Both the position numbers and the translations under genes were made by a program. The notes under the pieces were generated by a model. It was given only the letters and a program-made list of their open reading frames with translations. It had not been told where the DNA came from and searched no databases. From contig CAINJJ010000030.1 in assembly GCA_903849645.1 (NCBI GenBank), positions 124,001-188,000 on the forward strand: a stretch of DNA of 64,000 nucleotides. The letters are read 5' to 3'. Below, one piece after another: positions 32,555 to 60,701 of this stretch (positions are counted from its first letter, which is position 1; every line of letters begins with the position of its first letter). The DNA is from an uncultured Acidobacteriaceae bacterium. Its GTDB lineage: Bacteria > Acidobacteriota > Terriglobia > Terriglobales > Acidobacteriaceae.

Positions 32555-32731
32555 CCCATCGAGGATAAATCACGACGGGAAGAAGGAGTGGCCCTGGGAA
32601 CCTCTGTCCGCGTCCCTACCCCAGGGCCGGGCCAGCCGTTCGGCATCATCGACGCGAGGTTGAAGGAGAATGGCTGGGCGACAGTTGGCCGCAGCGATTG
32701 GGATACACTGCAAGCCGTGGGGGGGATTCAG

Positions 32732-34717: not shown

Positions 34718-34855
34718 AGAAGCCGCGCGCCGGATTGATAACAGTTTCAATCGCGGCCGCGGGAACTGGTGCGCCGCGCCACGGACCGGACGCTTCCATG
34801 AGGTGAGGCCGGCTTGCAGCTCTCTGGGTTAGACTCAAGCGGTGGAGGAGCCCTG

Positions 34856-38938: not shown

Positions 38939-41900
38939 GTGAGACAGACACCCCCCTATCAGGAGCGCTCTCAGTTGTCTCGACCCATCCCATCGATTGC
39001 TTTCGCGCTTGCGCTTGCAATCATGGTGCTGGTGTCGTTGACACCCAGGGCCGCATTCGCGCAGGCCAGCGCCGGCATCACGGGCACAATCACCGACACA
39101 AGCGGCGCCGTCATCTCCTCTGCCCGCCTAACCATCACAAACGAAGGAACTTCGGTCGTTGACCATACGGTGACCAGCAGTTCGGGAACGTACTCCTTCA
39201 AGGGCGTATTGCCGGGAAGATATACCGTCTCGGTTGAAGCCCAGGGGTTCAAGAAGGGAATTCAGAAGGGCGTGACGGTCGAGGTCAGCACCACGGCCAC
39301 AATCGACTTCAACCTTACGCCCGGCGCGGCAAACGAAACCGTCCAGGTGACCGCCGACCAGATCGCGTTGAACACAACTCAGCCGGAACTGGGCAGCACG
39401 CTCGAGCCTGAAGTGGTGGCGGCATTGCCTGAAGAAGTATCGGGCCGCGGCCGCCAGATTGATCAACTGCAGTTCCTGGCCCCCGGAACGACGGGCAGCA
39501 CCTTCTCCCATCGCATCAGCGGCGGCGTCGACTTCGAGCAGGAGATCATCTACAACGGCATCCCGGCTCCGCAGCCTGAGACCGAAGGGTACACGACCAA
39601 CTTCAATCCGCCCTTCGACCTGGTGCAGGAGTATCGCGTCGAGCGTTCCACGTTTTCCGCGCAGTACGGCCTTGGGCAGGGCGCGCTGACCTATCAGATG
39701 AAGTCGGGTACAAACAGCTACCATGGCAATGCGTTTGAAATCAACCGCAACAGTTTCTTTGACTCGGTGGGCTTCTTCAACGGCCCGGCGTGGAATTCGG
39801 CCAATACCAGAAACAAGCCGCCGGTAGATCACGAAAACAACTACGGATTCAGCATTGGCGGGCCCATCCGCATCCCCCACATCTACGACGGGCGCAACAA
39901 GACATTTGGCCACTACAGCCAGGAATGGTACAAGCAGAACAACGAAAACACGAATCAAGGCACGGTGCCGACCAAGCTGGAAAAGGGGCTTGGCTCCACA
40001 GGCGACTTCGATTTCAGTGACTTCCAGGGGATCGACCCTGTTACGCAGAAAGTGGTAGTGATCCCCATCTATGACCCGCTCACTGGACAGCAGTTCCAAT
40101 GCAATGGCGTTCTCAACGTGATCTGCAAGAATCGCGTGAGTCCCCTTGCCCAGAGCTTGCTTCAGTTCATTCCAGATCCCGACAATTCCGGCTCCGGTGT
40201 CGGAGGGTTGGACAGCAACAAGAACTTCGTGCCCTTTATCAACCCCACCATCCAACACAACTGGGGCTTTACCCTCGACCAGACGCTGACGCCGACCCAG
40301 AGCCTGCACTATGCCCAGTGGCGCAACACCCTCCACAACGACGGGTTTGACCAGGCGCCGATTGTGCCCTACACAAATCCGCTCGGAAGCCTGAGGTCTT
40401 ACCCGTACATTGGCAGCGTGTTCCTGCTCAACTACACCAACGCCATCAATCCCCACCTGGTCATGACGGCTGGGTTTGGATGGATTGGCGAAATCAACAA
40501 CCAGTTCAACCTCAACAAGTTCGCTCCCAAGCCCTCTTACGTGGGAGTGCTCAACGAGGACATCTTCCCCTCCATCACCTTTGACGGCAACCACACGCCC
40601 ACCAGTTGGGGCACCGGCGGCTCAAACTCAGGCTCGGTCAACCGCAAACTGGGCGTCGCCATCGTGAACAACTGGCTATGGACGAAAGGCCGCAACACCT
40701 TCAACATCGGGTGGGAGTTCCGCCGCTCCTTGCAGGACGACAACGAAGAGCAGACCGAGGGCGGTCACTTTGCCTTCAGCCATAAGCAAACATCGATCCA
40801 CAACCCCAACGATCCCGCCTTTGGCGGGTACGGCAGTGCATTCGCCAGCTTCCTTCTGGGCCTTCCGGATTCGGAAGACCGCAGCAACTCCCAGGAACTG
40901 CGCCTGCGCAACTACGATCTGTCGCCCTATGTCCAGGACGACATCAAGCTATCGCCGAAGCTGACACTGAACGTCGGCCTTCGTTGGGACATTCAGGCGC
41001 CATTCACTGAAGCAAAAGACCTGATCGTCTTCTTTGATCCCTCGAGGACAGATCCGGCGGCCATCGGCCCCAACGGTCCTATTGCCGGAGGCGCCAACAA
41101 GTTTGGCAACTGCACCGGATGCGCGGGATACACCCACGCCGATACCCATTACGGCCATGTCGGACCTCGCCTGGGCTTTGCCTACAAACTGAACAACAAG
41201 ACAGTGGTGCAGGGCGGTTTGGATATCGCCTTCCTGAATGGCGGAGCGTATGAGTACGGCACCAGCAAGGTCGCCGTCAACTACAGCAACCTGCTGACTG
41301 GCCAGTTCCATCGCGCCAGTTCCAACACCTACACCTCCGCACCGGGCAACTGGGACGCCAACCCCATCCCTGCCACCAACCCCACGCCGTTCACCGCGGG
41401 CCTCGGCGGAGGCAACCAGATCAACGCCTTCGACAAGAAGAAGGACGGCTACGCTCCCTATAGCGAGCAGTGGAACCTCAACCTGCAGCGCGAGCTGCCC
41501 TACAGCATGTTCATCACGGCTGCCTTTGTGGGCAACCGCGTCATTCACCTGCCCAGCCAGAACAACCGCATCGACCAGATGGATCCGAAGTTCGATGCGC
41601 AGTACGGAAACGTGCAGAGCCCTTGCCAGGCCCCTGGCACCTCGGTGCTGGCCGATACATTCGGACCGGGCGGGTGCGCTGAACAGGATGGCTTCACTCT
41701 GCCCTATGCCAGCTATGTGCAGGACTTCGGCGGATCAGCGACGGTTGCCCAGGCGCTGGTGCCCTATCCACAGTACAACTACATCTTCAACAACTTTGAA
41801 GGCTACGGCACGACCTACTACCAGTCAGCCCAGATTGAAGTGGAAAAGCGCTTCTCCAGCGGTCTTTCCTTCCTGGCCGGCTACACCCTGTCGCGCCTGA

Positions 41901-42580
41901 TGGACAACACCAGCAGCGGTTTCTCCAGCTTTACCTCTGGCGGAATCAACAAGTACAACCAGAAGCCCGAGTGGGCGGTCTCCAACTCCGATGAGCCGCA
42001 GACTCTCAAAGTCAGCGGAACCTACGAACTGCCCATCGGCCCCGGCAAGAAGTACCTGAACAATCACATAGCAGGCAACGTTGCCGGAGGATGGCAGGTT
42101 GGCTGGATTCTGGACTATGAGTCAGGAACGGCATTCGGCGTGGGCGAAAGCGGGTCACCCTTCCCCAACGGCTTCAATCGTCCCAACCGCAACAGTTCGG
42201 TCGGTCTCAGTACCGCTTCCTACAGCAAGGTGCGCGACTACTTCACCAAGAACAATGGGCAGGGACCTGGCGCGCAGATGTTCAATGCTGGAGCCTTCAC
42301 CACCACAACAACGCAATACGTGATCGGCAACGCCATCCGGAACTACTCGGAACTCAGAAGCCCGCCGCTCCTGATGGAAAGCCTGAATGCCAGGAAGCAC
42401 TTCTACCTCGGAGAGCACCTCCAGGGCATTCTCACGCTGGACTACTTCAACGCATTCAATCGAACGCAGTTCAACGGCCCGGATACCAACGCAAGCGATG
42501 GCTCGTTCGGACAGGCCAGTTCCAAGGGCTCGAACATCAGCAACCGCCAGGGCCAGGTGAAATTCCAACTGGAGTTCTAA
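38939..42580 (+). CDS. Oar-like TonB-dependent receptor with carboxypeptidase-regulatory domain
   Basis: A 1,213-residue outer-membrane receptor. A signal peptide (about 18-42, FALALAIMVLVSLTPRAAFAQ) is followed by an Ig-like carboxypeptidase-regulatory domain (about 45-130, TGTITDTSGAVISSARLTITN). A plug domain and a beta-barrel come next, ending in Phe (KFQLEF), as expected for Omp insertion. The group is known as Oar-like or CarbopepD_reg TBDR and is much enlarged in Acidobacteriota. The GTG start has AAGGAG five bases upstream. Tandem LacI-type operators control its promoter, so expression is probably induced by its ligand or a breakdown product. No TonB box was pinned down by eye. Confidence 0.92.
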   Translation: MRQTPPYQERSQLSRPIPSIAFALALAIMVLVSLTPRAAFAQASAGITGTITDTSGAVISSARLTITNEGTSVVDHTVTSSSGTYSFKGVLPGRYTVSVEAQGFKKGIQKGVTVEVSTTATIDFNLTPGAANETVQVTADQIALNTTQPELGSTLEPEVVAALPEEVSGRGRQIDQLQFLAPGTTGSTFSHRISGGVDFEQEIIYNGIPAPQPETEGYTTNFNPPFDLVQEYRVERSTFSAQYGLGQGALTYQMKSGTNSYHGNAFEINRNSFFDSVGFFNGPAWNSANTRNKPPVDHENNYGFSIGGPIRIPHIYDGRNKTFGHYSQEWYKQNNENTNQGTVPTKLEKGLGSTGDFDFSDFQGIDPVTQKVVVIPIYDPLTGQQFQCNGVLNVICKNRVSPLAQSLLQFIPDPDNSGSGVGGLDSNKNFVPFINPTIQHNWGFTLDQTLTPTQSLHYAQWRNTLHNDGFDQAPIVPYTNPLGSLRSYPYIGSVFLLNYTNAINPHLVMTAGFGWIGEINNQFNLNKFAPKPSYVGVLNEDIFPSITFDGNHTPTSWGTGGSNSGSVNRKLGVAIVNNWLWTKGRNTFNIGWEFRRSLQDDNEEQTEGGHFAFSHKQTSIHNPNDPAFGGYGSAFASFLLGLPDSEDRSNSQELRLRNYDLSPYVQDDIKLSPKLTLNVGLRWDIQAPFTEAKDLIVFFDPSRTDPAAIGPNGPIAGGANKFGNCTGCAGYTHADTHYGHVGPRLGFAYKLNNKTVVQGGLDIAFLNGGAYEYGTSKVAVNYSNLLTGQFHRASSNTYTSAPGNWDANPIPATNPTPFTAGLGGGNQINAFDKKKDGYAPYSEQWNLNLQRELPYSMFITAAFVGNRVIHLPSQNNRIDQMDPKFDAQYGNVQSPCQAPGTSVLADTFGPGGCAEQDGFTLPYASYVQDFGGSATVAQALVPYPQYNYIFNNFEGYGTTYYQSAQIEVEKRFSSGLSFLAGYTLSRLMDNTSSGFSSFTSGGINKYNQKPEWAVSNSDEPQTLKVSGTYELPIGPGKKYLNNHIAGNVAGGWQVGWILDYESGTAFGVGESGSPFPNGFNRPNRNSSVGLSTASYSKVRDYFTKNNGQGPGAQMFNAGAFTTTTTQYVIGNAIRNYSELRSPPLLMESLNARKHFYLGEHLQGILTLDYFNAFNRTQFNGPDTNASDGSFGQASSKGSNISNRQGQVKFQLEF

Positions 42581-44975: not shown

Positions 44976-46028
44976 TCATTTTGATTCGTTCGCTGGAGTG
45001 CAGCCGCAGGAACTGCGCTGGATGAGACAGGTCGTCATCTTGATTTGTTGGGGCTGTTTGGCGGAAGCCGGCGAACTGGCGCTGCTTCCGCCGGATAGTT
45101 GTTCGAAGAGGATCTCGGCCGCACGTCGCCCGATCTCTTCGACCGGTTGCTGAATCACGCTGATGGATGGGCGCACGGTCGAGGCGAGGTCGAAGTCGTC
45201 GAAGCCCAGCAGCGCAATGGATTGGGGCACGGCAACGCCCAACTTCTGCAGCGCCTCGAACGCAAAGATCGTTGTGCTGTTTTTGAGTGCAAAGATTGCG
45301 TCCGGCGGATGCGGCCCGTCCAACAGATTCTTGATAGCGCGTTCAGCGCACGCGTAGTCCTTGACCGATGTGTCGAAGATCGGGGTCAAATGCGCGGCCT
45401 TGATCGCCTTGAGATAACCGTTCATCCGCTCCTGGATGGTATACAAGGTCTCTTCCCCGGTTAGTGCAACGATCCTCTTGCAACCGTGCCCGATGAGATG
45501 CTGCGTGGCAGTCATGGCGCCCAGCAGGTTGTCGGCGACCACGGACGCAATCGAAGGATTGCCGATGGGGCGATCAATGGCGACAACCGGCATGGCGGCC
45601 CGCTGCAGCAGGTCGAGCAGGGCGTGACTGTTCGAATCGGCGGGGACAATCAGAAGACCATCGACGCGATGGCGAATGAGCACATTCAGAATCTCGAGCT
45701 CATTGCACGGTTCGTTGGCCGTTACGGTCACGATCAGCAGCGAGTCATTGGCGCGCGCAACAGCCTGCGCGGCTTCAGCGCAACTGGCAAAAAAGGGGTC
45801 CGTGATGCTGGGAACGACAAGGCCGATGGTCTTTGTGCGATGCCCCTTCAGCGAGCGGGCAGCAGGATTCGGGATATACCCGAGTGTTTCAATTACGCGG
45901 CGCACATGGGCCAGAGTTTTTGGACTGACGCGATCACCGCCGTTGATGACCCGCGAGACCGTCGTCGTGCCCACGCCCGCCTTGCGAGCAACCTGGCTCA
46001 GAGTCGGATGCGGACTATTGATCGACAT
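44976..46028 (-). CDS. LacI-family transcriptional regulator
   Basis: A 350-residue repressor. The N-terminal helix-turn-helix (TLSQVARKAGVGTTTVSRVINGG) is followed by a hinge helix (NPAARSLKG) whose Leu would enter the central CG of an operator. The periplasmic-binding-protein-like sensor domain (TIGLVVPSITDPFFASCAEA to about residue 330) follows and binds a sugar or similar small molecule. The ATG at 46028 was chosen because the HTH begins soon after it; codons upstream to 46172 are open but do not look like family sequence. It is convergent with TPR gene 2. The two operators at the receptor promoter are its likely targets. The effector is unknown. Confidence 0.9.
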   Translation of the reverse strand: MSINSPHPTLSQVARKAGVGTTTVSRVINGGDRVSPKTLAHVRRVIETLGYIPNPAARSLKGHRTKTIGLVVPSITDPFFASCAEAAQAVARANDSLLIVTVTANEPCNELEILNVLIRHRVDGLLIVPADSNSHALLDLLQRAAMPVVAIDRPIGNPSIASVVADNLLGAMTATQHLIGHGCKRIVALTGEETLYTIQERMNGYLKAIKAAHLTPIFDTSVKDYACAERAIKNLLDGPHPPDAIFALKNSTTIFAFEALQKLGVAVPQSIALLGFDDFDLASTVRPSISVIQQPVEEIGRRAAEILFEQLSGGSSASSPASAKQPQQIKMTTCLIQRSSCGCTPANESK

Positions 46029-46062
46029 TGGAGCGCGGCTCAAATCGGTATCTCTCCAGGGT

Positions 46063-46072
46063 TCCAATTGGA
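46063..46072. promoter_or_regulatory. Perfect 10-bp palindrome upstream of lacI-type gene
   Basis: TCCAATTGGA, 35 bp before the start codon of the LacI-family gene, with partly symmetric flanks (GGTTCCA on one side). Its half-sites resemble those of the receptor operators but point outward. Autoregulation is possible but weakly supported. Confidence 0.3.
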
Positions 46073-46211
46073 GGCTGTCCGGGCCCACAAATCGAGATTG
46101 ATTCCGGAAAGCAAGAGTGCCGGAGGATGTTGACGGAGTCGAGCCGATAGCTCTCCGCATTGCTTCGATCAACCTACGCTTCAGGATCGGGGAGCATGAG
46201 GTACAGCAGAA

Positions 46212-47714
46212 TCACTGTCCCCCTCCCGCGAGGAGGGACTTGACGGCCGGTTCGATGGTGTCCAGCAGAATCCTCGGGTAGATCCCTACGGCGAGGCTTG
46301 AAAGCCCCAGCAGCGCAACACCTGCATACTCGGGCCAGGTAATCGGGGCCAGTTCATGCCCGTGTTCGTGGAGGTGCGGGCTGGGCGCCACATCGCTGAA
46401 GAAGGCCTTCTGCAGAGCGCGCCACGTGTAGGCCACACCCACAACGATGCCGATGCCCGCCGCCGCCGTCCACCAGGGATTGGCTACCCAGGAGCCGACC
46501 AGCACCTGCAACTCGGCCACAAATCCGGAGAAGCCGGGCAGGCCCATGGAAGCCATGCCTGCAATCACAAAGGCCCACGCAGCGAAGGGCAGGCGCTTGG
46601 ACAGGTGCATGGTCTCCAGTTCGGCCAACTGGCGGGTGTGGGTGCGCTCATAGACGATGCGCCCCACGATGGCGAAGAGCAGCCCGGCGATGACGCCGTG
46701 GGAGAACATCTGCAGCACCGCGCCGGTCACGCCAATCTGGTTGAGCGTGACGAGGCCCAGCAGCACAAAGCCCATGTGGCTCACGCTGGAGTAGCCAATG
46801 ACGAACTTGAAGTCGGTCTGCGCCAGCGCGACCAGTGCGCCGTAGACGATGCCGATGACGGCCAGCACGGCGAAGACATCGCGCCAGGAGCCGATACCGA
46901 GCAGCGAGAAGCCCCAGGGGTCAAGACCGTGGGGAAAGAGCGCCATGCCCACGCGGAGGCAGCCGTAGGCGCCGAGCTTCATGACTACGCCGGCCAGCAG
47001 CATGGAAGCGGCAGTGGGCGCGGCGACGTGGCCGGTCGGCGCCCATGTGTGGAAGGGCCACATGCCGGCCAGAATTGCGAAACCCGTGAAGACCAGCGGA
47101 AAGCACCACATCTGGAAGCTCACGGGGAACCCCGCAGCCCCAAGCGCAACGAGGCCTGTGGAGTGGCCCCCCGCGGTGGCGTACGCGGCCAGCAGGCCAA
47201 TGAGCACCATGGCCGAGCCGGCGAAGGAGTAGAGGGCCAGCTTCATGGCCGCATACTCCCGCCGTGTGGAACCCCAGATGGCGATCAGGAAATACTTCGG
47301 AACGATGGCGATTTCGTAAAAGACGAAGAGCAGGAAGAGGTCAAAGCTCAGAAAGACGCCGAAGACCCCGCCGATCAAAGCCAGGAAGAAGGCAAAAAAC
47401 TGGTTGGTACGCAGCTCGATATTCCAACTGAACAGGACCCCGGCCACGGCCGCCAGGCCGGTCAGCAGAACAAGGACGCGGCTGATGCCGTCGGCCGCCA
47501 GCAGGTAATGAATCCCCATGGAAGGAACCCAGGGCAGGTCGACAAGCACCGTGCGGCCTTGTCCCATGCCCGCCACAAAGCCCGAGGCGGCAACAACCAG
47601 CGCGGCCACGGCCACCGCCAGCGCGAACCAGCGCGCGAGAGCGGGCTTGCCCTTGGGCAGCAGCGTCTCGATCAGCGCCCCGGCAAACGAGAGATAGATC
47701 GTCCAGGCAAGCAT
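46212..47714 (-). CDS. nuoM2: Complex I proton-pumping subunit NuoM, second copy
   Basis: A 500-residue antiporter-like membrane subunit of NADH:quinone oxidoreductase. It is NuoM and not NuoN: FLLFVFYEIAIVPKYFLIAIWGSTRREYAAMKLALYSFAGS matches the NuoM type, with the conserved Glu in FYEIAIVP. The proton-path Lys is in MLLAGVVMKLGAYG. About 14 membrane helices. It starts directly after the nuoM1 stop with no gap and is the last nuo gene in the window. The region downstream contains no nuoN. Two NuoM copies in one operon point to an enlarged membrane arm. Confidence 0.9.
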   Translation of the reverse strand: MLAWTIYLSFAGALIETLLPKGKPALARWFALAVAVAALVVAASGFVAGMGQGRTVLVDLPWVPSMGIHYLLAADGISRVLVLLTGLAAVAGVLFSWNIELRTNQFFAFFLALIGGVFGVFLSFDLFLLFVFYEIAIVPKYFLIAIWGSTRREYAAMKLALYSFAGSAMVLIGLLAAYATAGGHSTGLVALGAAGFPVSFQMWCFPLVFTGFAILAGMWPFHTWAPTGHVAAPTAASMLLAGVVMKLGAYGCLRVGMALFPHGLDPWGFSLLGIGSWRDVFAVLAVIGIVYGALVALAQTDFKFVIGYSSVSHMGFVLLGLVTLNQIGVTGAVLQMFSHGVIAGLLFAIVGRIVYERTHTRQLAELETMHLSKRLPFAAWAFVIAGMASMGLPGFSGFVAELQVLVGSWVANPWWTAAAGIGIVVGVAYTWRALQKAFFSDVAPSPHLHEHGHELAPITWPEYAGVALLGLSSLAVGIYPRILLDTIEPAVKSLLAGGGQ

Positions 47715-49232
47715 CTAAAATCTCCAGTGAGCCAAAAGGTTGACGACCGTTGGGTTCACGCTGTCCACAATCAGCTGGGGCAACAGGCCGACCAGCAGCA
47801 TGAGGCCGATGACGGGGGCCATGGCAAGCCGCTCCCCGCCGTGCAGGTCAGGAAAGGCAGCCCACTGTTCCGGCACCGGCCCTGTAAATACCTTTTGAAT
47901 CACGGTCAGAATCACGGCCGCCGTCACCAGCAGGCCCAGCACGGAAACCGTAGCCGCTACCCATACCAGCGAAAAGACGCCGCGGAAGATCAGGAACTCG
48001 CCCACAAAGCCGTTGAGCCCCGGAAGTCCCAGCGACGAGAACAGGGCAATGCCCATCAGTCCAGCCAACACCGGCGCCGGCTTGCGCAGTCCGCCAAAGT
48101 GGTCGATGTTGCGCTCGCCGCCGCTGCGCTCCTGGATCATGGCGATAAACCAGAAGAGCGCCGCCGCCGTGATGCCGTGGTTGAACATCTGCAGGATGAC
48201 GCCGTTGAGAGCCGCCGCCTGGCTGGCCTGCGCCCCGGCGCTCACCGCCGGAACCGCCAGCGCGAAGATGCCCAGCAGGCAGTAGCCCAGGTGGTTGACC
48301 GAGGAGTAGGCAAAGACGCGCTTCAGATCCTTCTGCGCCGCCGCCGCCCACGCCCCCATCACCACCGTCACCACGGCCAGCACCAGCAGAGGAGTCCGCA
48401 TCTGGGCAATCTGGGGACCGAAGAGAGGCAGCGCGATCCGCAGCAGGCCATAGACGCCCATCTTGGACATGGCGCCGGTCAGCAGCATCGTTACGGGTGA
48501 AGGGGCCTCGGCATAGGCTGCCGGGAGCCAGGTATGAAACGGCGCAATCGGCACCTTCACCGCAAACCCGGCCAGCACGCCAACCGCCAGCCACAGGGTT
48601 ACCGGTCCCAGGTGGGCCGTGACCATCTGCTCCAGTTCGCCGGTGGAGGCGAGGAGCGTGAGATGCGGGAAGTCCATGCTGCCGGTGGAAAGGAAGACCG
48701 CCAGAAAGGCCAGCAGCAAAGCCACGGATCCGGCCATGGTGTAAACGAAGAACTGTGTCGCCGCCGGTCCCCGCTTCGCGCCGCCCCACAGCTTGATAAG
48801 GAAGAATGCCGGAATCAGGCTCAGCTCCCAGAAGAGAAACCAATGGAAGAAGTTGAGAGCCGTGAACGAGCCGAAGAGTCCCGCCTCCAGCAGCAGCACC
48901 AGGCCAAAGTAGAGTCCCGGCTGCCGATGCACGCGGTGCGCGGCGTCCACCGACATGAGCGTAACAATGGCGGACAACACCAGCATCAAGCCGCCAAGCC
49001 CGTCCACGCCGAGGTGGTATTCAATGCCCAGGGAAGGCGCCCATGCCGCCCGCTCCACCAGCCCCATGGCTCCATTCGCCGGCAACTGCAACCAGACATA
49101 CAAGGCAAGTGCCACCGAGGCCAGGGTCGTCGCCAGCGCCACGGCGCGCGCATGCCTGCCGGCCAGCAGGGCAAGCGCTGCCCCCACTACGGGCAGCACG
49201 GTCAACACCGTCAATACAGGAATTCCGTTCAT
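47715..49232 (-). CDS. nuoM1: Complex I proton-pumping subunit NuoM, first copy
   Basis: A 505-residue antiporter-like subunit with about 14 membrane helices. FFHWFLFWELSLIPAFFLIKLWGG carries the conserved Glu, and LLTGAMSKMGVYGLLR the proton-path Lys. VPIAPFHTWLPAAYAEAPSPV is the usual NuoM loop. Its start overlaps the nuoL stop (ATGA). It is clearly different in sequence from nuoM2, so this is an old duplication and not a recent tandem copy. Confidence 0.92.
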   Translation of the reverse strand: MNGIPVLTVLTVLPVVGAALALLAGRHARAVALATTLASVALALYVWLQLPANGAMGLVERAAWAPSLGIEYHLGVDGLGGLMLVLSAIVTLMSVDAAHRVHRQPGLYFGLVLLLEAGLFGSFTALNFFHWFLFWELSLIPAFFLIKLWGGAKRGPAATQFFVYTMAGSVALLLAFLAVFLSTGSMDFPHLTLLASTGELEQMVTAHLGPVTLWLAVGVLAGFAVKVPIAPFHTWLPAAYAEAPSPVTMLLTGAMSKMGVYGLLRIALPLFGPQIAQMRTPLLVLAVVTVVMGAWAAAAQKDLKRVFAYSSVNHLGYCLLGIFALAVPAVSAGAQASQAAALNGVILQMFNHGITAAALFWFIAMIQERSGGERNIDHFGGLRKPAPVLAGLMGIALFSSLGLPGLNGFVGEFLIFRGVFSLVWVAATVSVLGLLVTAAVILTVIQKVFTGPVPEQWAAFPDLHGGERLAMAPVIGLMLLVGLLPQLIVDSVNPTVVNLLAHWRF

Positions 49233-51301
49233 GCCCGGCTGCTCCAGATCAGTATTGCGGCCAGCGCCACAATCGCCAGCGCCAGAATTCTCAGGTAGGT
49301 CTGCACACGGCCGCTTTGCACTCGCGCCAGCAACCCGCCGCCCGCTGCCAGTTCCTCACAGCCCTTGTCGAAGCTGCCATCCACCACGTTGGTGTCAAGG
49401 AAACGATTGACGCGCGCCCACAGCCCGAAGGCCCCGGCCACCGCGGCCACCACTCCGCCCCAGACGCGGCGGTCCAGCCAGTCGGCAACCCGCGCCCACC
49501 AGCCATAGAAAGCAATTACCGTGACGCCATAGAGCTCATCCACATAGAGCCTGTCGCGCAGCCATCCCCAGACCACGGGCACGGAGCGCTCCAGCGGGTC
49601 CGGATCTTCCGGAGCGGGCGACTTGGCGCCGTAGATCGTCCAGCCCAGGCCGAGGCCGAGGAAGACCACGACCGTCGAAATGCCCATCAGGGGCAGCAGT
49701 CCCGGCTCGCCAAAGGCTTGCAGGTCGAAGTTCGCTGCCCGGCCTTCGAGAAATGCGCGGAACCAGGGCCAGACTGGGGTTCCGATCAGACCAAGCGCCA
49801 TGGCGAAGAATGCCAGGATCACCAGGGGCAGGGTCATCACGGAAGGGCTCTCATGCGCCGACTTCCTGCCGCGCCAGTAGCCGAAGAACACATAGGAGAC
49901 CTGGCGCGTCATGTAGAAGGCCGTCAGCAGGGCGCCAAACACAAGCATGTAAAACGGCCCTTTGGCCACGCCCCAGTGCTGGGCCGCTTCCAGAATGCCG
50001 TCCTTGCTCCAGAAGCCGGAGAAGAGCAGCGGGAACCCGCAAAGCGCCAACATGCCGATGGTGTAGGTGACAAAGGTGAGGGGCATATCGGCCTTGAGGC
50101 CGCCCATCTTGCGGATATCCTGCTCCTCGTGGCAGCCGTGAATGACCGAGCCCGCGCCCATGAACAGCAGGGCCTTGAAAAAGGCGTGGGTGATGAGATG
50201 GAACATGCCCACCGCCACGCCGCCCATGCCCAACCCGGCCATCATGTAACCCAGTTGCGAGACCGTGGAGTAGGCCAGGATGCGCTTGATGTCGTTCTGC
50301 GCGACGGCAATCAGAGCGGCAAAAATGGCTGTGGAAGCGCCGACCCATGTAACGACGGTGAGGGATGCTGTGCTTCCGCCGGTCAGCGACCCCGCCTGCA
50401 TCAGCGGGTAGACACGGGCGATGAGATATACACCCGCCGCCACCATGGTGGCTGCGTGAATCAACGCGGAGACCGGCGTGGGGCCTTCCATGGCATCCGG
50501 GAGCCAAACGTGGAGCGGAAGCTGACCGCTCTTGCCGGCCGCCCCGCCAAAGATCAGCAGGCCGATGGCTCCAGCGGCCGTGAGCCCGAAGCAGGCAGGC
50601 TGCGTGAGCAGCACCGCCAGCGCGCCCGGCTCCATGGAGCCCGTGCCGTGGTTATAGAAGAGCAGCGTGCCCGTCTGCGCAAAGAGCCACACGATGCCGA
50701 GGAGAAAAAAGACGTCGCCCACGCGCGTGGTCAGGAAGGCTTTCTTGGCTGCCGCGGCGGCGGAGGGCTTCTGGTACCAGAACCCGATCAGCAGGTAGGA
50801 GGTGAGACCTACCAGTTCCCAGCACATGAAGAGAAGCAGGAGTGAATTGGCGATGACCACGCCCAGCATGGCTCCGGCAAACAGGGAGAGAAAGCAGAAG
50901 AAGCGGGTGAAGTTCTCGTCGTGGGCCATGTAGCCGACGGAGTAGATGAAGATGAGCAGGCCCACAAAGCTGACCATCACCAGCATGGCCGCGGAGAGCG
51001 GGTCAAGCACCCAGCCGAGATCGACGTTGGTTGAGCCGAACTGAAGCCAGGTAAAGTTGACCACCTCGCGGGCTGCCTGGCCGTTGAGCCACAGACCGAC
51101 CACATGCGCGAAGGCCGCCAGGGAAACCAGCAGCGAAAAGCTCATGGCCCCGATGGCCAGTGTGGCCGAGGCCTTGCGGCGGCTCTGCTTGAGCAGCGCG
51201 GCCACGCCTGCCGCAACCACCGGCACCGCGGGAATGAGCCACAGAAGCTCCGCAACCGGAGAGGCTGCCAACTGCGGAGTGAATGAAATCGACTCTTGCA
51301 T
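49229..51301 (-). CDS. nuoL: Complex I subunit NuoL
   Basis: A 690-residue distal pump subunit of complex I. The core LPLHVWLPDAMEGPTPVSALIHAATMVAAGVYLIAR includes the conserved channel residues, and KRILAYSTVSQLGYMMAG follows. The C-terminal part holds the long lateral helix and the last membrane segment. It is longer than the 613 residues of E. coli NuoL, which fits a lateral helix that spans an extra NuoM. The ATG at 51301 was chosen; a TTG at 51304 lies directly before it. Starts 7 bp after nuoK. Confidence 0.94.
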   Translation of the reverse strand: MQESISFTPQLAASPVAELLWLIPAVPVVAAGVAALLKQSRRKASATLAIGAMSFSLLVSLAAFAHVVGLWLNGQAAREVVNFTWLQFGSTNVDLGWVLDPLSAAMLVMVSFVGLLIFIYSVGYMAHDENFTRFFCFLSLFAGAMLGVVIANSLLLLFMCWELVGLTSYLLIGFWYQKPSAAAAAKKAFLTTRVGDVFFLLGIVWLFAQTGTLLFYNHGTGSMEPGALAVLLTQPACFGLTAAGAIGLLIFGGAAGKSGQLPLHVWLPDAMEGPTPVSALIHAATMVAAGVYLIARVYPLMQAGSLTGGSTASLTVVTWVGASTAIFAALIAVAQNDIKRILAYSTVSQLGYMMAGLGMGGVAVGMFHLITHAFFKALLFMGAGSVIHGCHEEQDIRKMGGLKADMPLTFVTYTIGMLALCGFPLLFSGFWSKDGILEAAQHWGVAKGPFYMLVFGALLTAFYMTRQVSYVFFGYWRGRKSAHESPSVMTLPLVILAFFAMALGLIGTPVWPWFRAFLEGRAANFDLQAFGEPGLLPLMGISTVVVFLGLGLGWTIYGAKSPAPEDPDPLERSVPVVWGWLRDRLYVDELYGVTVIAFYGWWARVADWLDRRVWGGVVAAVAGAFGLWARVNRFLDTNVVDGSFDKGCEELAAGGGLLARVQSGRVQTYLRILALAIVALAAILIWSSRA

Positions 51302-51308
51302 CAACCCC

Positions 51309-51620
51309 TCACCCCTTCATCCTGTTCATCAGGTCAATGTCCGTGGTGTGCGCGTGGCGATGAACCGCAATCACCAGGCCCAGTCCAACCGCGGCCTCGG
51401 CAGCCGCCACGGCGATGGAAAAGATGGCAAACATCATGCCCGTCAGCGCCTCCGGATGCGGACCGTAGCGCCAGAAGGCAATCAGGTTCAGGTTGGCCGC
51501 GTTGAGCATGAGCTCAATGCCAATCAGCACCAGGATGGCGTTGCGCCGCGTGAGCGCCCCGGCCAGGCCGATGGAGAACAGCAGCGCTGCCACCAGAAGA
51601 AACCCCGCAAGCGGCGTCAT
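51309..51620 (-). CDS. nuoK: Complex I subunit NuoK
   Basis: A 103-residue subunit with three membrane helices and two buried acidic residues in the usual places: IGIELMLNAANLNLIAF (Glu) and VAAAEAAVGLGLVIAVHR (Glu). It connects NuoJ and NuoN in the proton path. Its start overlaps the nuoJ stop (ATGA). Confidence 0.95.
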   Translation of the reverse strand: MTPLAGFLLVAALLFSIGLAGALTRRNAILVLIGIELMLNAANLNLIAFWRYGPHPEALTGMMFAIFSIAVAAAEAAVGLGLVIAVHRHAHTTDIDLMNRMKG

Positions 51621-52120
51621 TGCTTCTCCTCTTTCTCATGCATGGCCACCATGACGGCGCCAATCAGCGCGGCCGTCAACAGCACGGCCACAATCTCCAG
51701 CGGCAGCACATAGCGGCTCATCAGCGCATTGCCTATCTGCAGCACCGTCACATGGGGCGCGGGGCTGGAGTGCGGGAGCATGGGCGCGGTTCCCAGAACC
51801 GCCCACCCGAGCACGGCAAACACCGCCGCCGCGACCGCAAGTCCCGCAAGCCATGTGCGGCTGAAGATTTCGCCGTCCTTGGGCGTCTCCGAGCCGCGCG
51901 TGAGCAGAATCGCAAACACCACCAGGATGGCTACCGCGCCGATATAGACCAGGATCTGCGCAAAGCCGGCGAACTGCGCGTCAAGATTGAGAAACAGCAG
52001 CGCCAGCCCGGCAAAGGCGATCGTCAAGGCCAGCGCGCAATGCACCAGATTCTTGAGCAGCACCGCTGCCAGCGCGCCCGCCACCGTCAAGGCCGAAATC
52101 AGATAAAAGGCAAAGCTCAT
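51617..52120 (-). CDS. nuoJ: Complex I subunit NuoJ
   Basis: A 167-residue membrane subunit with five helices. The N-terminal LKNLVHCALALTIAFAGLALLFLNLDAQFAGFAQILVYIGAVAILVVFAI block is characteristic, with the conserved Tyr in LVYIGAVAIL. Slightly shorter than the E. coli protein (184). Its stop overlaps nuoK. Confidence 0.94.
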   Translation of the reverse strand: MSFAFYLISALTVAGALAAVLLKNLVHCALALTIAFAGLALLFLNLDAQFAGFAQILVYIGAVAILVVFAILLTRGSETPKDGEIFSRTWLAGLAVAAAVFAVLGWAVLGTAPMLPHSSPAPHVTVLQIGNALMSRYVLPLEIVAVLLTAALIGAVMVAMHEKEEKQ

Positions 52121-52162: not shown

Positions 52163-53338
52163 TCACTCCGCATAGCGGTATCTCCTCGGCCCAAAGTGCT
52201 CCCGGTACATGCCCACGCGGCCCATGAGGATGTACGCCACAATCAGAATGGCCGAACAGACCACCCAGCGCTCCCAGCCGTCGCCCAGGAAGCGCCACAG
52301 GCCGGCCACAAAGAGATTCAGCAGGGTCATGGGCAACACAAACTTCCAGGCGAAGTTCATCAGCTGATCCTGGCGGAGACGGGGCAGCGTGCCGCGCATC
52401 CAGATAAAGACCGCGATCGAAAGCAGCAACTTGGAGAAGAACCAGATCCACGAGGGAACCCAATTCAGAGCCTCGAGCGGCGAAGACCAGCCGCCCAGGA
52501 AGAGTGTCGATCCGAGTCCGGAGATGGACAACATGCCCACATACTCACCCAGGAAGAAGAGCGCGAACTTGAAGCCCGAGTACTCAGTAAAGTAGCCGGC
52601 CACAAGCTCCGACTCGCCTTCGGGAAGATCAAAGGGCGAGCGGTTGGTCTCCGCCGTGGCTGCGATGGCAAACATGAGAAAGCCCGCGAATCCCCAGGGC
52701 GTAAAGATGTACCAGTGCGGAAGGCCCCAGGTGTAGTGGTTCTGCGCCTCCACAATTTTTGACAGCGAGAGCGACCCGGTAATCATGACCACCGCCACGC
52801 TCGAAAGGAGCAGCGGCACTTCGTAGCTGATCATCTGCGCCACGGCGCGCATGGCGCCCAGCAGCGAATACTTGTTACGGCTGGACCAGCCTGCCATGAA
52901 GACCGCCAACTCGGTGGATGCGCCGATGGCGAAGTAGAACAGCAGACCGGCATCCAAATCCACCAGGACCATGTTGCGGCCCATGGGCAGCACGGCAAAG
53001 CCCATGAAAACCACCACCACCAAAACCACCGGCGCCATGAAATGCACGAGTGCGTCGGCACTCAGCGGGACGAGGTCTTCCTTGGTCAGCGATTTCACGC
53101 CGTCGGCGATGGGCTGAAATATGCCGAAGGGACCCACGCGGTTGGGGCCCAGGCGGTTTTGCATGCGGCCCAACCCCTTGCGCTCCAGCAGCACGCAGAT
53201 AGCGAAGAGCGCAGGAAAGAGGCAGATGATGGTCAGAACGCACAGAAGAATCCCGGCCACCGGCTGCCATGTCGCGGGAAGAAAACTCACCAGCCAGTGC
53301 TTGAGGAGGACGAAAACCTGATCGAGCCATTCGAACAT
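52163..53338 (-). CDS. nuoH: Complex I subunit NuoH
   Basis: A 391-residue membrane subunit that forms the quinone entry site with NuoB and NuoD. Clear hallmarks are ERKGLGRMQNRLGPNRVGPFG, YSLLGAMRAVAQMISYEVPL and ETNRSPFDLPEGESELVAGYFTEYSGF, which carry the acidic E-channel residues. About eight membrane helices. In this operon nuoI comes before nuoH, the reverse of the common order. Confidence 0.96.
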   Translation of the reverse strand: MFEWLDQVFVLLKHWLVSFLPATWQPVAGILLCVLTIICLFPALFAICVLLERKGLGRMQNRLGPNRVGPFGIFQPIADGVKSLTKEDLVPLSADALVHFMAPVVLVVVVFMGFAVLPMGRNMVLVDLDAGLLFYFAIGASTELAVFMAGWSSRNKYSLLGAMRAVAQMISYEVPLLLSSVAVVMITGSLSLSKIVEAQNHYTWGLPHWYIFTPWGFAGFLMFAIAATAETNRSPFDLPEGESELVAGYFTEYSGFKFALFFLGEYVGMLSISGLGSTLFLGGWSSPLEALNWVPSWIWFFSKLLLSIAVFIWMRGTLPRLRQDQLMNFAWKFVLPMTLLNLFVAGLWRFLGDGWERWVVCSAILIVAYILMGRVGMYREHFGPRRYRYAE

Positions 53339-53341
53339 TGC

Positions 53342-53962
53342 TTACTCTCCCCCTCCGGCCGGCTTGGCCGCGGCGGCAGCCTTGGCGGCGGCATCGGCCG
53401 CTGCCCTGGCCTTGGCGTCCGCCTTGGCCTTCTCTTCTGCCAGGCGCGCATCCACCTCGGCCGCTTCCGTGGGATGAATCTTGTGGTAGTACTCGTTCGA
53501 CTTGGCCAGTTGCCTGCGGTCGTGCAGCAGCCCGCCGAAGCGGTCGGTCGTGCTCAGCTCAAACTCGTTGTCCATCTTGATGGCTTCAAAGGGACACACT
53601 TCGACGCATATCTGGCAGCTCATGCAAACCGAAACGTCGATGTCAAACCGCGTGGGATAGAACTGTTGCTTGCCCAGGGCATCCGGCTTCTTGTCCTTTG
53701 ACTTGTCGATGAAGATGCACTTGGGCGGGCACTCTTTCTCGCAGATCTGGCAGGCCACGCAGCGCAGGCCGGCCTCCCAGTCGTTTTCGTCTCCGGGGTT
53801 CCTGGCGTCATACACAAGGAAGGGAAACACGCGCGCCGCCTCAAAGGTGGGAATCCGGTCTTCCGGATACTCGACCGTCGTCAGCCGCTCCTTTGAGACA
53901 AAGCTCCCGGCAAAGTTCTTCGCCGTCTCGGCCAGCCCCTTCAGTATTCCCTCACCCAGCAA
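53342..53962 (-). CDS. nuoI: Complex I subunit NuoI (2 x [4Fe-4S])
   Basis: A 206-residue ferredoxin-type subunit that passes electrons to NuoB through two [4Fe-4S] clusters. The two motifs are CVACQICEKECP (first) and CMSCQICVEVCP (second). The C-terminus has an unusual Ala/Lys-rich tail (about 175-206). The start is a TTG at 53962 with GGAGGAA upstream. Three bases separate it from nuoH. Confidence 0.94.
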   Translation of the reverse strand: MLGEGILKGLAETAKNFAGSFVSKERLTTVEYPEDRIPTFEAARVFPFLVYDARNPGDENDWEAGLRCVACQICEKECPPKCIFIDKSKDKKPDALGKQQFYPTRFDIDVSVCMSCQICVEVCPFEAIKMDNEFELSTTDRFGGLLHDRRQLAKSNEYYHKIHPTEAAEVDARLAEEKAKADAKARAAADAAAKAAAAAKPAGGGE

Positions 53963-54001: not shown

Positions 54002-55198
54002 TTAACGATCCACTTCTCCCAGCACAATATCCACCGAGCCAAAGATGAGCACAACATCGGCCATGTTGGCGCCAAGCGCCATGTCCTCAAGCACCGTCAG
54101 ATTGATCAGGCTTGGCGGCCTCACCCGGTAGCGGTAGGGGTTCGGTCCCCCGTCGCTGATCAGATAAAAGCCCAGCTCGCCCTTGGGAGCCTCAATGCGC
54201 CCGTAGGCTTCGCCCGGCTTGGGCCGGAAGCCGCGGATCTTCGCCTTGGGGTCCATGACCGGGCCGCCGGGAATGTCCTTGAGCGCCTGCTCCAGAATCT
54301 TGATGGACTCCCGCATCTCCAGCAGGCGGATCATGTAGCGGTCATACACATCCCAGTGGTCGCCCAGCGGCACCTTGAAGCTGAAGCGGTTGTAGATGCT
54401 GTAGCCATCCACCTTGCGAATGTCGTAGTTCACGCCCGAGGCGCGCAGCATGGGTCCGGTGACGCCGGCGTTGACCGCAAGCTCGGGCCTCAGAATGCCC
54501 ACGCCCTGAGTGCGGGCCATGAGAATCTCATTGCCGGAGAGCAGCCGGTCCACCTCTTCGGTAAATCCATAGAGCCCGGCCACCACCTTGCGCGTCTTGT
54601 CGAGCCAGGCCGCGGTTGGATCAACCCGGCAGCCGCCGAAGCGCATGTAGTTGCACATCATGCGGGCCCCGGTCAGCTCTTCAAAGAGGTCAAGAATCTT
54701 TTCCCGCTCGCGGAAGGCGTACATCAGAGGGGTGCCGCTGGCGCCCATCTCCTGAATCAGGAATCCTATGGAGGAGGCGTGGTTTTGGAAGCGGGTCAAC
54801 TCGCCCAGAATCACGCGCAGATACTCGGCACGCTCCGGAACTTCCTGGCCCGTGAGCTTCTCCACCGCCAGCGCATAGGCCCAGTTGTTGGTGAGCGGAC
54901 AGATGTAGTCCAGCCGGTCGGTATAGGGCATGGAGGCGAGATAGCTGATGCCTTCCGCGATCTTCTCGTGGTTGCGGTGCAGGTAGCCGAAGACGGGCTT
55001 GAGGCGGATGACGCGCTCCCCGTCCAGCGCCACGTCCATGCGGAAGACGCCGTGGGTGGAGGGATGGTGCGGCCCCATGGCCACTTCAAGCAGCTCGCCC
55101 TCGCCGTCCGGCTCAATGAGGGGCGGGCGGTTCCAGCCGTCGGGCCGGCCGGTCACGGTGAGGGGGTCGATTGCCTCGTCAACGGGAAGATTGCTCAT
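54002..55198 (-). CDS. nuoD: Complex I subunit NuoD (49-kDa)
   Basis: A 398-residue hydrophilic subunit of the quinone-reducing module, related to [NiFe]-hydrogenase large subunits but lacking the metal-site cysteines. Typical blocks are GPHHPSTHGVFRMDVALDGE (quinone-site His) and HRNHEKIAEGISYLASMPYTDRLDY. Its start overlaps the nuoC stop (ATGA). Confidence 0.96.
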   Translation of the reverse strand: MSNLPVDEAIDPLTVTGRPDGWNRPPLIEPDGEGELLEVAMGPHHPSTHGVFRMDVALDGERVIRLKPVFGYLHRNHEKIAEGISYLASMPYTDRLDYICPLTNNWAYALAVEKLTGQEVPERAEYLRVILGELTRFQNHASSIGFLIQEMGASGTPLMYAFREREKILDLFEELTGARMMCNYMRFGGCRVDPTAAWLDKTRKVVAGLYGFTEEVDRLLSGNEILMARTQGVGILRPELAVNAGVTGPMLRASGVNYDIRKVDGYSIYNRFSFKVPLGDHWDVYDRYMIRLLEMRESIKILEQALKDIPGGPVMDPKAKIRGFRPKPGEAYGRIEAPKGELGFYLISDGGPNPYRYRVRPPSLINLTVLEDMALGANMADVVLIFGSVDIVLGEVDR

Positions 55199-55869
55199 TG
55201 ACCGGCCTCCGTTCCCTGCCCTGCCGCGTCCTTGTGCGCCTGCGCGCGCGCCAGCACCTCGTCGTGCGCCGTCGGTTCGTAATCAAAGTCGTCCGGCTCC
55301 ACATAATCGCGGCGCATGGGGTGGTCAGTGAATGCGTCCCACATCAATAGCCGCCGCAGGTCCGGATGGCCCTCGAAGACGATGCCAAACAGGTCGAATA
55401 CTTCGCGTTCCTGGAACTCGGCAGACCGCCATACCGGGGTCAGCGATGGAAGGCTCACCTGGCCCGTGCGGTTCACCGTCCGCATCCTCAGGACCACAGG
55501 ACCATGCTTCCTGGTGACGGAATAGAGGTGGTAGACGGCTTCCAGGCATCCCGGCTCCACACGCTTGCGGGTCTCGTCCACCGTCTCTTCCACGCTTTGC
55601 TCAACGCCGTCCACGGTCTTTGTCACCGTGCGGGTCACTTTCACCTTTTCGGCGATTTCCTTGTCCGGCCAGTCCACTCCGGTCACATTGGACAGGAAAT
55701 CGAGGGCCAGCTCCGTGTCGTCATGGAGGAACTTGCCCACAGCCCGGGCGGTTGCCGGGTCGAGCCGGAGCGAGTGCTGCCCGCTGACGCTGGGATTGGG
55801 CACAATCTCCACTCCCGCGCCGGGGACCGCCGCCTCAATCGCCGCCTTGATTTCTTCTACCGTCTTCAA
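55195..55869 (-). CDS. nuoC: Complex I subunit NuoC (30-kDa)
   Basis: A 224-residue subunit of the connecting arm. The conserved core is EREVFDLFGIVFEGHPDLRRLLMWDAFTDHPMRRDY near the C-terminus. A charged insertion (VTRTVTKTVDGVEQSVEETVDETRKRV) interrupts the N-terminal half. I chose the TTG at 55869 (MKTVEEIKA) because AGAGG lies seven bases upstream; other TTG codons at 55875 and 55884 are possible. Confidence 0.92.
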   Translation of the reverse strand: MKTVEEIKAAIEAAVPGAGVEIVPNPSVSGQHSLRLDPATARAVGKFLHDDTELALDFLSNVTGVDWPDKEIAEKVKVTRTVTKTVDGVEQSVEETVDETRKRVEPGCLEAVYHLYSVTRKHGPVVLRMRTVNRTGQVSLPSLTPVWRSAEFQEREVFDLFGIVFEGHPDLRRLLMWDAFTDHPMRRDYVEPDDFDYEPTAHDEVLARAQAHKDAAGQGTEAGQ

Positions 55870-55913
55870 TCCCAAACCTCTCAAAAACCTCTGCCAAGCT
55901 CTTCCGCCCCTGG

Positions 55914-55977: not shown

Positions 55978-56592
55978 CTAGCGAATCACCACCGGCACCG
56001 TCCAGACGCCCGGATTCGAGGCAGGCTCCAGATCATGCTCGCCCTGCACCGGCACGGGAAACTCTCCCTGCGCCTCGGCGTCGAGATGCCGCGGACGGCC
56101 CTCCCCGGTCAGGTGCTGGCCGTCAATCTTCTTCTGCAGGGTGATAAAGGCATCGAGCAGCGCCTCTGGGCGGGGCGGACAGCCGGGAATGTGCACATCC
56201 ACCGGGATGTAACGGTCAATCCCTTTGAGCACGTTGTAGCCCTGCTTGAACGGCCCGCCGGAGATGGCGCAGGCGCCCATGGCAATCACGTACTTGGGCT
56301 CGGCCATCTGGTTATAGAGCCGCACCACCTGCGGGGCCATCTTCTTGGTCACCGTGCCGGAGATGATCATCATGTCTGCCTGGCGGGGCGAGGGACGAAA
56401 CACCTCGGCGCCGAAGCGGGCCAGGTCGTAGCGCGCCATGGTGGTGGCGATCATCTCAATGGCGCAGCAGGCCAGGCCGAACTGCATGGGCCAGATGGAG
56501 TTGCGCCGGCCCCAGTTGTAGAGCTCCTGGAGGGACGTAACCAGGACGCCCTGCTTGCCCAGCTCGATCTTCAATCCCTCATCCACTGCCAT
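55978..56592 (-). CDS. nuoB: Complex I subunit NuoB
   Basis: A 204-residue subunit carrying the terminal cluster N2. Cluster ligands are in [10 protein letters not shown] (adjacent Cys pair), [10 protein letters not shown] and [11 protein letters not shown]. The ATG at 56592 has GGAG eight bases upstream. The C-terminal 40 residues are a variable extension. A 9-unit repeat lies just after its stop. Confidence 0.95.
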
Positions 56593-56636
56593 CGTTTCGC
56601 TCCACTCCAATTCAGTTGTCGGCCTGCCGCATCCAG

Positions 56637-56678: not shown

Positions 56679-57050
56679 TCACGCCCAGGTGAGCACGCCC
56701 TTGGCCCAGGCCCAGGCCAGCCCTTCCACCAGCAGCAGAACAAACACCAGCATGGCCAGGCACGCCGCCAGCCCCAGGCCGGTAAACGCCACGGCAAAAG
56801 GCAGCAAAAACACCGCCTCGACGTCGAAGATGAGGAAGATGATGGCGTAGAGATAATAGGCCGAGCGGAACTGCACCCAGGCGTCGCCCTTGGACTCCAG
56901 CCCGCACTCATAGATGGCGTTCTTGATGGCATTTGGCTTGGCCGGCGAATAGACCTGCGCCCAAAGCCACGCCAGCGCCAGGGGGGTCAGCCCAAAGCAC
57001 AACGCTGCCACGAACAGAACCGCAAGAGAAAAATAAGGGCTTGAGGCCAT
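56679..57050 (-). CDS. nuoA: Complex I subunit NuoA
   Basis: A 123-residue membrane subunit with three helices. KNAIYECGLESKGDAWVQFRSAYYLYAIIFLIFDVEAVFLLP is the defining block, with the conserved Cys-Gly loop and the Asp-Val-Glu. It is the first gene of the operon, which then continues B, C, D, I, H, J, K, L, M, M. Confidence 0.95.
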   Translation of the reverse strand: MASSPYFSLAVLFVAALCFGLTPLALAWLWAQVYSPAKPNAIKNAIYECGLESKGDAWVQFRSAYYLYAIIFLIFDVEAVFLLPFAVAFTGLGLAACLAMLVFVLLLVEGLAWAWAKGVLTWA

Positions 57051-59678: not shown

Positions 59679-60701
59679 CTATTCCGACTCCACAGTCTCT
59701 TCCGGCGCGGAGGAGATCGTTCCCGGCGCGACGATGCCGTATTTCACGTCGAGAAATGCCTGCAAATCCTCTGAAGCCATCGCGGCGAGTTCCTGCCACG
59801 TGAACACCATGCAGCGCGTACGCAACTCCGCGGACCGCACCGACGCCATCACCTGAAACCAGGCCTCGCGCAGGTCTGGCCGCCGGGCATCGTGGATCAT
59901 GCAGAATCTCGCTCCCACCGCGTGCGCCGCCAGCACGTTGCGAATGAGTTGATAGCCCGCGTAGCCTGCCTCGCCGCCGGCTTCCGCCTCGGCGCGCGCC
60001 ACCATCTCCGCCTGGAAGGCACGCGCCCCCGCGCCTTCATCGTCGGCCGGCGCCTCCCACTCCTGTGTAAACTCCTCGGCAAACTCGATTGCGGTGCGAC
60101 GCCGCGCCGTGCGCAGCAAGACCCGCGGCAGCATCTCACGATCGAACACAGCGTCAAAGTCCCGGTAGCCTTCCACTATGGCCGCGGCACGGGTCTGAAA
60201 ATCCCCTTCGGTGAGCTTGGCCTCCACCAGAAGCGATCCCCAGCGCATATCGACTTCCGTCCGGTCAAACCTGCCTGAGGCCAGCGGCACGCGGGCCTTC
60301 CAACCAAACTCCGGCAGCCCATCCTCATCGACCGCAAGAGTCTGCCGCATCGCATGGGCCTCCGGAGCGCAAAACACGTTCATCAGCAGCGCATCGGAGC
60401 TCATCGACGAATCCAGTTCCCGCCACCGCCGCCCCGACTCCGCCCTGGGCAGCGCCCGCGCCTGCGCATGCATCTTGTCAAAGCGCCGCATCCACTCGGG
60501 TCGCGCCACAATGGCCGCGTAAGAGCGGTCGAAGAAATTTCCGTGCCGCTCGCTGCCGCCGGTGCTGCACTCCGGCGCATACACCACCACTGGATCACTT
60601 CCGAAGCTCTCTACGTGCGTCTGCCCCTGCGCGCACGCACGGTTGCGGGCTGAAATCTCCCGCCGCAGTGAACTCGCGAAACCTCTCGCCCCTATCTCCA
60701 T
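59679..60701 (-). CDS. Hypothetical protein with PD-(D/E)XK nuclease-like motif
   Basis: A 340-residue soluble protein. Residues 149-165 (EVDMRWGSLLVEAKLTE) match the core of PD-(D/E)XK nucleases: Asp151, then Glu160-x-Lys162 on neighbouring strands. The rest has alpha/beta composition with no signal peptide. A weak resemblance to PGN_0703-type putative restriction endonucleases is possible, but no methylase or specificity gene lies next to it. It may act alone in DNA repair or defence. Function unknown. Confidence 0.7.
   Translation of the reverse strand: MEIGARGFASSLRREISARNRACAQGQTHVESFGSDPVVVYAPECSTGGSERHGNFFDRSYAAIVARPEWMRRFDKMHAQARALPRAESGRRWRELDSSMSSDALLMNVFCAPEAHAMRQTLAVDEDGLPEFGWKARVPLASGRFDRTEVDMRWGSLLVEAKLTEGDFQTRAAAIVEGYRDFDAVFDREMLPRVLLRTARRRTAIEFAEEFTQEWEAPADDEGAGARAFQAEMVARAEAEAGGEAGYAGYQLIRNVLAAHAVGARFCMIHDARRPDLREAWFQVMASVRSAELRTRCMVFTWQELAAMASEDLQAFLDVKYGIVAPGTISSAPEETVESE

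Follow-up and report, generated by a model that had tools for sequence, protein, structure and literature searches.

A form of complex I that contains two NuoM subunits (2M complex I) has been described (Chadwick et al. 2018, ISME J, through the citing papers PMC6606698 and PMC12342949). It is reported in Nitrospira, Chloroflexi and Acidobacterium capsulatum, and more protons per reaction cycle have been proposed for it (PMC6606698). The system presented here is a complex I operon, nuoABCDIHJKLM1M2, on the minus strand of a 64,000-nucleotide stretch of DNA from an uncultured soil bacterium of the Acidobacteriaceae (assembly GCA_903849645.1, contig CAINJJ010000030.1, positions 124,001 to 188,000), which is called the window below. 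Together with a nuoN gene on another contig (C53) of the same genome, the operon very probably codes a 2M-type complex I that has four antiporter-like subunits and no NADH-oxidising EFG module.

The operon shares with Nitrospira-type 2M systems the second NuoM, a long NuoL, separate NuoC and NuoD, the lack of nuoE and nuoF, and the presence of a canonical complex I in the same genome (PMC6606698, PMC12342949). It differs from Nitrospira clade 3, in which nuoH is absent and nuoG enlarged (PMC6606698), by the presence of nuoH, the lack of nuoG in the operon and the displaced position of nuoN. Among the Acidobacteriota, A. capsulatum similarly has a second complex I with duplicated nuoM beside the canonical one (PMC11636273, which cites Chadwick). 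More than three antiporter-like subunits are also found in the rhizobial green complex I and in Complex_I_3 of Candidatus Manganitrophaceae, whose MrpD2 features a 26-residue helix insertion (PMC9040806). MrpD-like proteins replace NuoL in those complexes, whereas the operon codes a true NuoL according to hidden Markov model (HMM) scores and phylogeny. Identity with the rhizobial green complex I, which has two MrpD-like proteins in place of NuoL, was rejected on the same grounds. The NuoM proteins nearest to that coded by nuoM2 (support 100/98) come from genome G335 of another acidobacterial family and from Phocaeicola massiliensis (OY725991), and the G335 NuoL sits next to the 2M NuoL in the tree (89/88). 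Like the operon in the window, their clusters lack any E, F or G match over the ~19 kb stretches compared; they differ from it by having one NuoM, a NuoL lateral-helix span of 49–50 residues and no lysine on transmembrane helix 5 (TM5).

Operon organization and the two NuoM proteins

The genes run from 57050 down to 46212, are tightly packed and partly overlap. They code eleven complex I subunits (A, B, C, D, I, H, J, K, L, M1 and M2):

56679..57050, minus strand: nuoA, 123 residues (Pfam PF00507, E 1.3e-30)
55978..56610, minus strand: nuoB, 210 residues (NCBIfam NF011394, above cut-off)
55195..55884, minus strand: nuoC, 229 residues, separate from nuoD (NCBIfam TIGR01961, E 2.6e-30, below its cut-off)
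54002..55198, minus strand: nuoD, 398 residues (NCBIfam NF004739, above cut-off)
53342..53962, minus strand: nuoI, 206 residues (NCBIfam NuoI models, below cut-off)
52163..53338, minus strand: nuoH, 391 residues (NCBIfam NF004741, above cut-off)
51617..52120, minus strand: nuoJ, 167 residues (NCBIfam NF005168, E 1.6e-33, below cut-off)
51309..51620, minus strand: nuoK, 103 residues (NCBIfam NF004320, above cut-off)
49229..51304, minus strand: nuoL, 691 residues, TTG start (NCBIfam NF005141, 633.8 bits against a cut-off of 556)
47715..49232, minus strand: nuoM1, 505 residues (NCBIfam TIGR01972, 438.2 bits; tree)
46212..47714, minus strand: nuoM2, 500 residues (NCBIfam TIGR01972, 423.6 bits; tree)

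NuoI carries two CxxCxxCxxxC motifs, at residues 68 and 113. The five acidic positions of Escherichia coli NuoH that were compared are all conserved, NuoK keeps E. coli E36 and E72 as E36 and E75, and 10/10 E. coli positions compared in NuoL are conserved. The long NuoL of the original prediction, which gave it 690 residues, has 691 codons from its TTG start.

That prediction also called two adjacent and distinct NuoM-type genes. They are frames open over exactly the coordinates listed, their products are 32% identical to each other, and both exceed the NuoM cut-off (TIGR01972, 263.8 bits), NuoM2 by 160 and NuoM1 by 174 bits. The NuoN model TIGR01770 gives 163.7 bits on NuoM1 and is absent from the top 25 families for NuoM2. 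In a tree of 78 NuoL, NuoM, NuoN and MrpD-like sequences both proteins fall inside the NuoM clade (100/100), while the NuoN, NuoL and MrpD-like rows are all outside; the Mrp side of this tree consists of two rhizobial MrpD-like rows, both on long branches. The grouping of one of the two with NuoN or with Mrp antiporters, raised beforehand as an outcome that would speak against the enlarged complex, is thus not observed. The predicted structure of NuoM2 (predicted local distance difference test score, pLDDT, 92.5) has as its best Protein Data Bank match the NuoM chain 8e9g_M (Z 54.9, root-mean-square deviation 1.6 over 483 residues), and the top solved-structure matches by sequence are NuoM/ND4-type chains.

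The same assignment is found in relatives. The search with NuoM2 yielded 305 stretches that matched the pattern, of which 237 encoded a relative and the best 80 were kept. These 80 related loci are mostly from Acidobacteriaceae (Acidobacteriota), with some from Verrucomicrobiota. Residue counts among them refer to loci with a long enough frame, leaving out 2/80 for NuoM2, 13/80 for NuoM1 and 13/80 for NuoN. The glutamate of TM12 that is a hallmark of NuoM is present in 67/67 NuoM1 and 78/78 NuoM2 aligned; NuoN has lysine there in 67/67. Three other identities were discarded: that the second nuoM is the nuoN of the usual L-M-N order (by HMM scores and tree), that either protein is an Mrp antiporter (both are in the NuoM clade, 100/100), and that the operon codes a canonical complex I with one NuoM (two NuoM by HMM and tree).

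The displaced nuoN gene

The order A B C D I H J K L M1 M2 N is complete in 34 of the 36 related loci that reach nuoA, and nuoN follows nuoM2 in 75/80. Four of the five loci without nuoN end at most 72 bases past nuoM2; the fifth, L061, shows 10 kb without nuoN. In the window no nuoN was detected, tblastn with both NuoN proteins of this genome matching NuoL, NuoM1 and NuoM2 only. Directly downstream of nuoM2, at the position of nuoN in relatives, lies a regulatory gene:

44976..46172, minus strand: LacI-type regulator, outside the complex (Pfam PF00356, PF00532)

Used as a query, this lacI product is the best match of one frame only among the 80 loci, in L061, with 30% identity.

A lone nuoN orthologue is found elsewhere in the genome (4.5 Mb, 100% complete per the assembly table). 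It lies on contig C53 as a full open frame of 526 residues, keeps all four key residues and falls within the clade of the relatives' 2M-operon NuoN in the 78-row tree. Those operon NuoN proteins have a mean identity of 68% to the C53 protein and of 34% to the canonical NuoN of this genome, which has a separate canonical cluster with L, M, N and EFG on contig C37. The enlarged complex I initially proposed for this organism is supported, the NuoN that it requires being present elsewhere in the genome as an orthologue of the 2M clade.

Linkage of the two genes was followed in 80 genomes of the genus. NuoM2 occurs in 76 of them and is accompanied by NuoN in 67, the other nine showing no NuoN above threshold. 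The nuoN gene is at most 60 bp from nuoM2 in 61 of the 67 genomes with both. The two genes are on different contigs in two species, represented by this genome and by G157 (the source of L061), in which nuoM2 is intact. In G195 and G200 nuoN is also unlinked but NuoM2 is partial, which makes a contig break likely. The gap measures 574 bp in G171, with a partial NuoM2, and 4.0 kb in G169, where the ~4 kb between nuoM2 and nuoN (L109, 7467-11488) hold at least two long open frames. Comparison of the displaced-nuoN sites of this genome and G157 (E 1e-20, ~19 kb each) gave no common frames except nuoN and frames overlapping it. A 43-row tree does not place the two genomes next to each other, but the fork joining the window and L028 is weak (0.39), so that separate moves of nuoN in the two species are only possible.

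NuoM2 is present in 42/42 good-quality genomes of the genus and in 44/150 genomes sampled across the order. Terracidiphilus gabretensis, of the same genus, carries the operon (L042, which shares its location with genome G070). Across the phylum, 9/297 sampled genomes have a NuoM2 match at 1e-100, but in two of the nine (G335 and G343) the match belongs to a one-NuoM cluster rather than to a 2M one. Contigs labelled Rhodoferax sp. (L074) and Proteobacteria (L093) have NuoM2 proteins 85% and 67% identical to that of the window, an occurrence that may be due either to mis-binning or to transfer.

The lateral helix of NuoL

NuoL has a lengthened lateral helix (HL):

49319..49543, minus strand: NuoL HL span, residues 588-662, with an insertion of 24–26 residues

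Between fixed anchors the span is 75 residues here, 51 in the canonical NuoL of the same genome, 46 in E. coli and 49 in the nearest single-NuoM relative (G335). It is 75 in the NuoL of 53/54 relatives and 57 in the remaining one. The structural model has one helix from residue 588 to 653, with low confidence (mean pLDDT 67.9), and helix length was therefore taken from the sequence.

The span was also determined in 23 NuoL from clusters with a single NuoM between L and N, 22 of them acidobacterial and one from Phocaeicola; L134, L146 and L150 were not anchored for this count, and 14 2M NuoL were measured on a separate alignment. It is long (75–76) in 9/23 and short (49–51) in 14/23. All nine long-span genomes carry a pair of L-M-N clusters, each with a single NuoM. 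In the eight of them in which the second NuoL was measured it is short (49–51), and none of the nine has an additional NuoM above the cut-off. The long-span frames are L120 (8561-11257), L130–L132, L137–L139, L144 and L147. A long helix without a matching extra NuoM is likewise reported in Candidatus Manganitrophaceae (PMC9040806). The insertion that the original prediction put forward as a test of the enlarged complex is therefore present (75 against 51 residues) but not diagnostic, and its value as proof of an extra NuoM is weakened, since one-NuoM clusters carry it too.

Proposed complex and electron input

In the proposed complex the displaced gene on C53 would supply NuoN as the twelfth subunit. 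Gene order and tree suggest that the four antiporter-like subunits may assemble in one membrane arm in the order N-M2-M1-L, with M2 next to NuoN and M1 next to NuoL. A carrier of low potential, in all likelihood reduced ferredoxin, would dock at NuoI/NuoB, and its electrons would travel through iron-sulphur clusters to quinone. The energy would be relayed outward through NuoH/A/J/K and then N, M2, M1 and L, which the lengthened NuoL lateral helix would clamp together. If M2 functions as a NuoM normally does, the complex might pump up to five protons per two electrons.

The choice of donor is suggested by the gene content. The operon has no nuoE, nuoF or nuoG. A search of the 80 related loci at E 1e-10 gave no EFG homologue and detected nuoA, the positive control, in 36; upstream of nuoA these loci extend by no more than 1,072 bases. 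Three NuoF-family matches exist in the genome, none of them on the contig of the window. On these grounds a low-potential soluble donor such as ferredoxin appears likelier than NADH. Reduced ferredoxin could be made by the cell, as the genome has four POR_N matches, which are genes of the 2-oxoacid:ferredoxin oxidoreductase type.

It is possible, though doubtful, that the complex is instead an NADH dehydrogenase that borrows NuoEFG from the canonical complex (C37) or from a HoxEFU-like module (C1). Both modules are present in the genome, and the 2M operon of Nitrospira moscoviensis also lacks nuoE and nuoF, a separate nuoF being proposed to interact with it (PMC6606698). The absence of EFG homologues from the 80 related loci speaks against such borrowing, although little is visible upstream of nuoA there, and the Hox-type module adjoins its own NiFe hydrogenase genes. 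The latter cluster (L106, 5308-10222, contig C1) has NiFe-hydrogenase large-subunit and Oxidored_q6 genes adjoining NuoE-, NuoF- and short NuoG-like genes, and is a Hox-type NAD-linked hydrogenase by its domain make-up. Note that on contig C15 of this genome (L105, 8289-10224) a NuoF/RnfC-like protein adjoins a protein with two stretches of the bacterial microcompartment (BMC) shell domain.

Key lysines of NuoM2

NuoM1 conserves the equivalents of E. coli NuoM E144, K234, K265 and E407 in 67/67 sequences aligned from the 80 loci. NuoM2 differs at two positions:

47070..47072, minus strand: NuoM2 Leu215, at the TM7 lysine site (E. coli NuoM K234)
47295..47297, minus strand: NuoM2 Lys140 on TM5 (E. 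coli NuoM M150), six residues past Glu134

The TM7 lysine of the Glu-Lys ion pair is replaced by leucine in 78/78 NuoM2 aligned and in the NuoM2 of five further genomes. The other axis residues of NuoM2 (E134, K246 and E401) are kept in 78/78. At the TM5 site there is lysine in 78/78 NuoM2, alanine in 67/67 NuoM1 and leucine in 67/67 NuoN. Among 29 NuoM from one-NuoM clusters, a sample biased by the 23 that came from a search with NuoM1, 27 have the TM7 lysine and two have leucine. The latter belong to G335 and Phocaeicola, and join NuoM2 in the tree (100/98). These two one-NuoM complexes I (L117/L119 for G335 and L121 for P. massiliensis OY725991) combine the TM7 leucine with the absence of the TM5 lysine. 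Loss of the TM7 lysine as a mark of the duplication was consequently rejected, and only the TM5 lysine remains specific to NuoM2 among the sequences compared. The tree, in which NuoM2 groups with the NuoM of two single-NuoM relatives, and the residue pattern suggest an origin of NuoM2 from the NuoM that an EFG-less complex had at first, NuoM1 probably being the unit added beside NuoL.

In the wave model, the NuoM ion pair K234-E144 forms one of the steps (PMC13324432, PMC9271201). Extra pumping cannot be assumed for a NuoM2 that lacks the TM7 lysine, and the arm may have four antiporters in shape only, NuoM2 being a non-pumping relay or spacer in a complex that pumps near four protons per two electrons. 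This reading, judged rather unlikely, draws on the TM7 leucine found in all NuoM2 compared and in the two single-NuoM relatives, and on the place of the ion pair in the wave model. The conserved E134, K246 and E401 count against it, and the TM5 lysine might replace the lost one. Furthermore, E. coli NuoN with the K217A substitution pumps normally in liposomes, electron transfer being down to about half (PMC13073174), and two single-NuoM complexes have the TM7 leucine with no TM5 lysine. A different proposal, put forward tentatively, is that NuoM2 is a naturally rewired module beside NuoN in which the TM7 switch lysine is gone and the TM5 lysine took over.

Weight of the evidence

Several observations weigh against the 2M complex I with four antiporter-like subunits proposed here. 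With 310.8 bits, the C53 NuoN falls short of the curated NuoN cut-off of 332.6, and in this genome nuoN has no linkage to the operon. Long branches were flagged by the tree program, most of them NuoN and MrpD-like (among others the E. coli, L148 and L121 NuoN, and both MrpD-like rows). An EFG operon may lie further upstream in relatives, where at most 1,072 bases were seen, and the canonical NuoEFG on C37 could be shared with the 2M complex. The uniform loss of the TM7 lysine and the long NuoL span of nine one-NuoM clusters point in the same direction.

Two further explanations turn on nuoN. That the operon is decaying after nuoN loss and forms no working complex is improbable: nuoN linkage was indeed lost in two species, but all twelve genes are open, none of the residues checked in L, K, H or N has been lost, and NuoM2 is retained in all 42 good-quality genomes of the genus. 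Still more improbable is a three-antiporter complex with NuoM2 in the place of NuoN and an irrelevant C53 NuoN, which would fit the operon without nuoN here and the nuoN of G157 on another contig than its intact nuoM2, but NuoM2 is a NuoM in the tree with glutamate and not lysine on TM12, M2 and N stand side by side in relatives, and the C53 NuoN has a full frame, its four key residues and a position in the 2M NuoN clade.

Neighbouring genes

Upstream of the operon, positions 59679-60701 of the window code a protein with Pfam PF22558 (restriction endonuclease associating with ARP, E 3.7e-37). On the plus strand, 32546-38535 hold three consecutive genes for FG-GAP / ASPIC-UnbV repeat proteins, followed at 38939-42580 by a gene for a beta-barrel protein with a CarboxypepD_reg domain.

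Significance

Within the reach of the searches, three features are new: the displacement of nuoN, the pattern of TM7 and TM5 lysines, and one-NuoM complexes of Acidobacteriota that have a long helix. No report of NuoM lysine loss or of a displaced nuoN was present among the literature matches listed, which does not show them to be unpublished. The long lateral helix, which is read as a sign of an extra module, occurs without one. In enlarged complex I enzymes nature provides a test of the relation between proton pumping and the number of modules, and this lineage offers a NuoM without a residue considered central to gating. If NuoM2 is rewired as proposed, the Glu-Lys pair, which current models take as the gate in every module, can be rebuilt within one helix or dispensed with, and the extra module may act as a relay rather than as a fifth pump.

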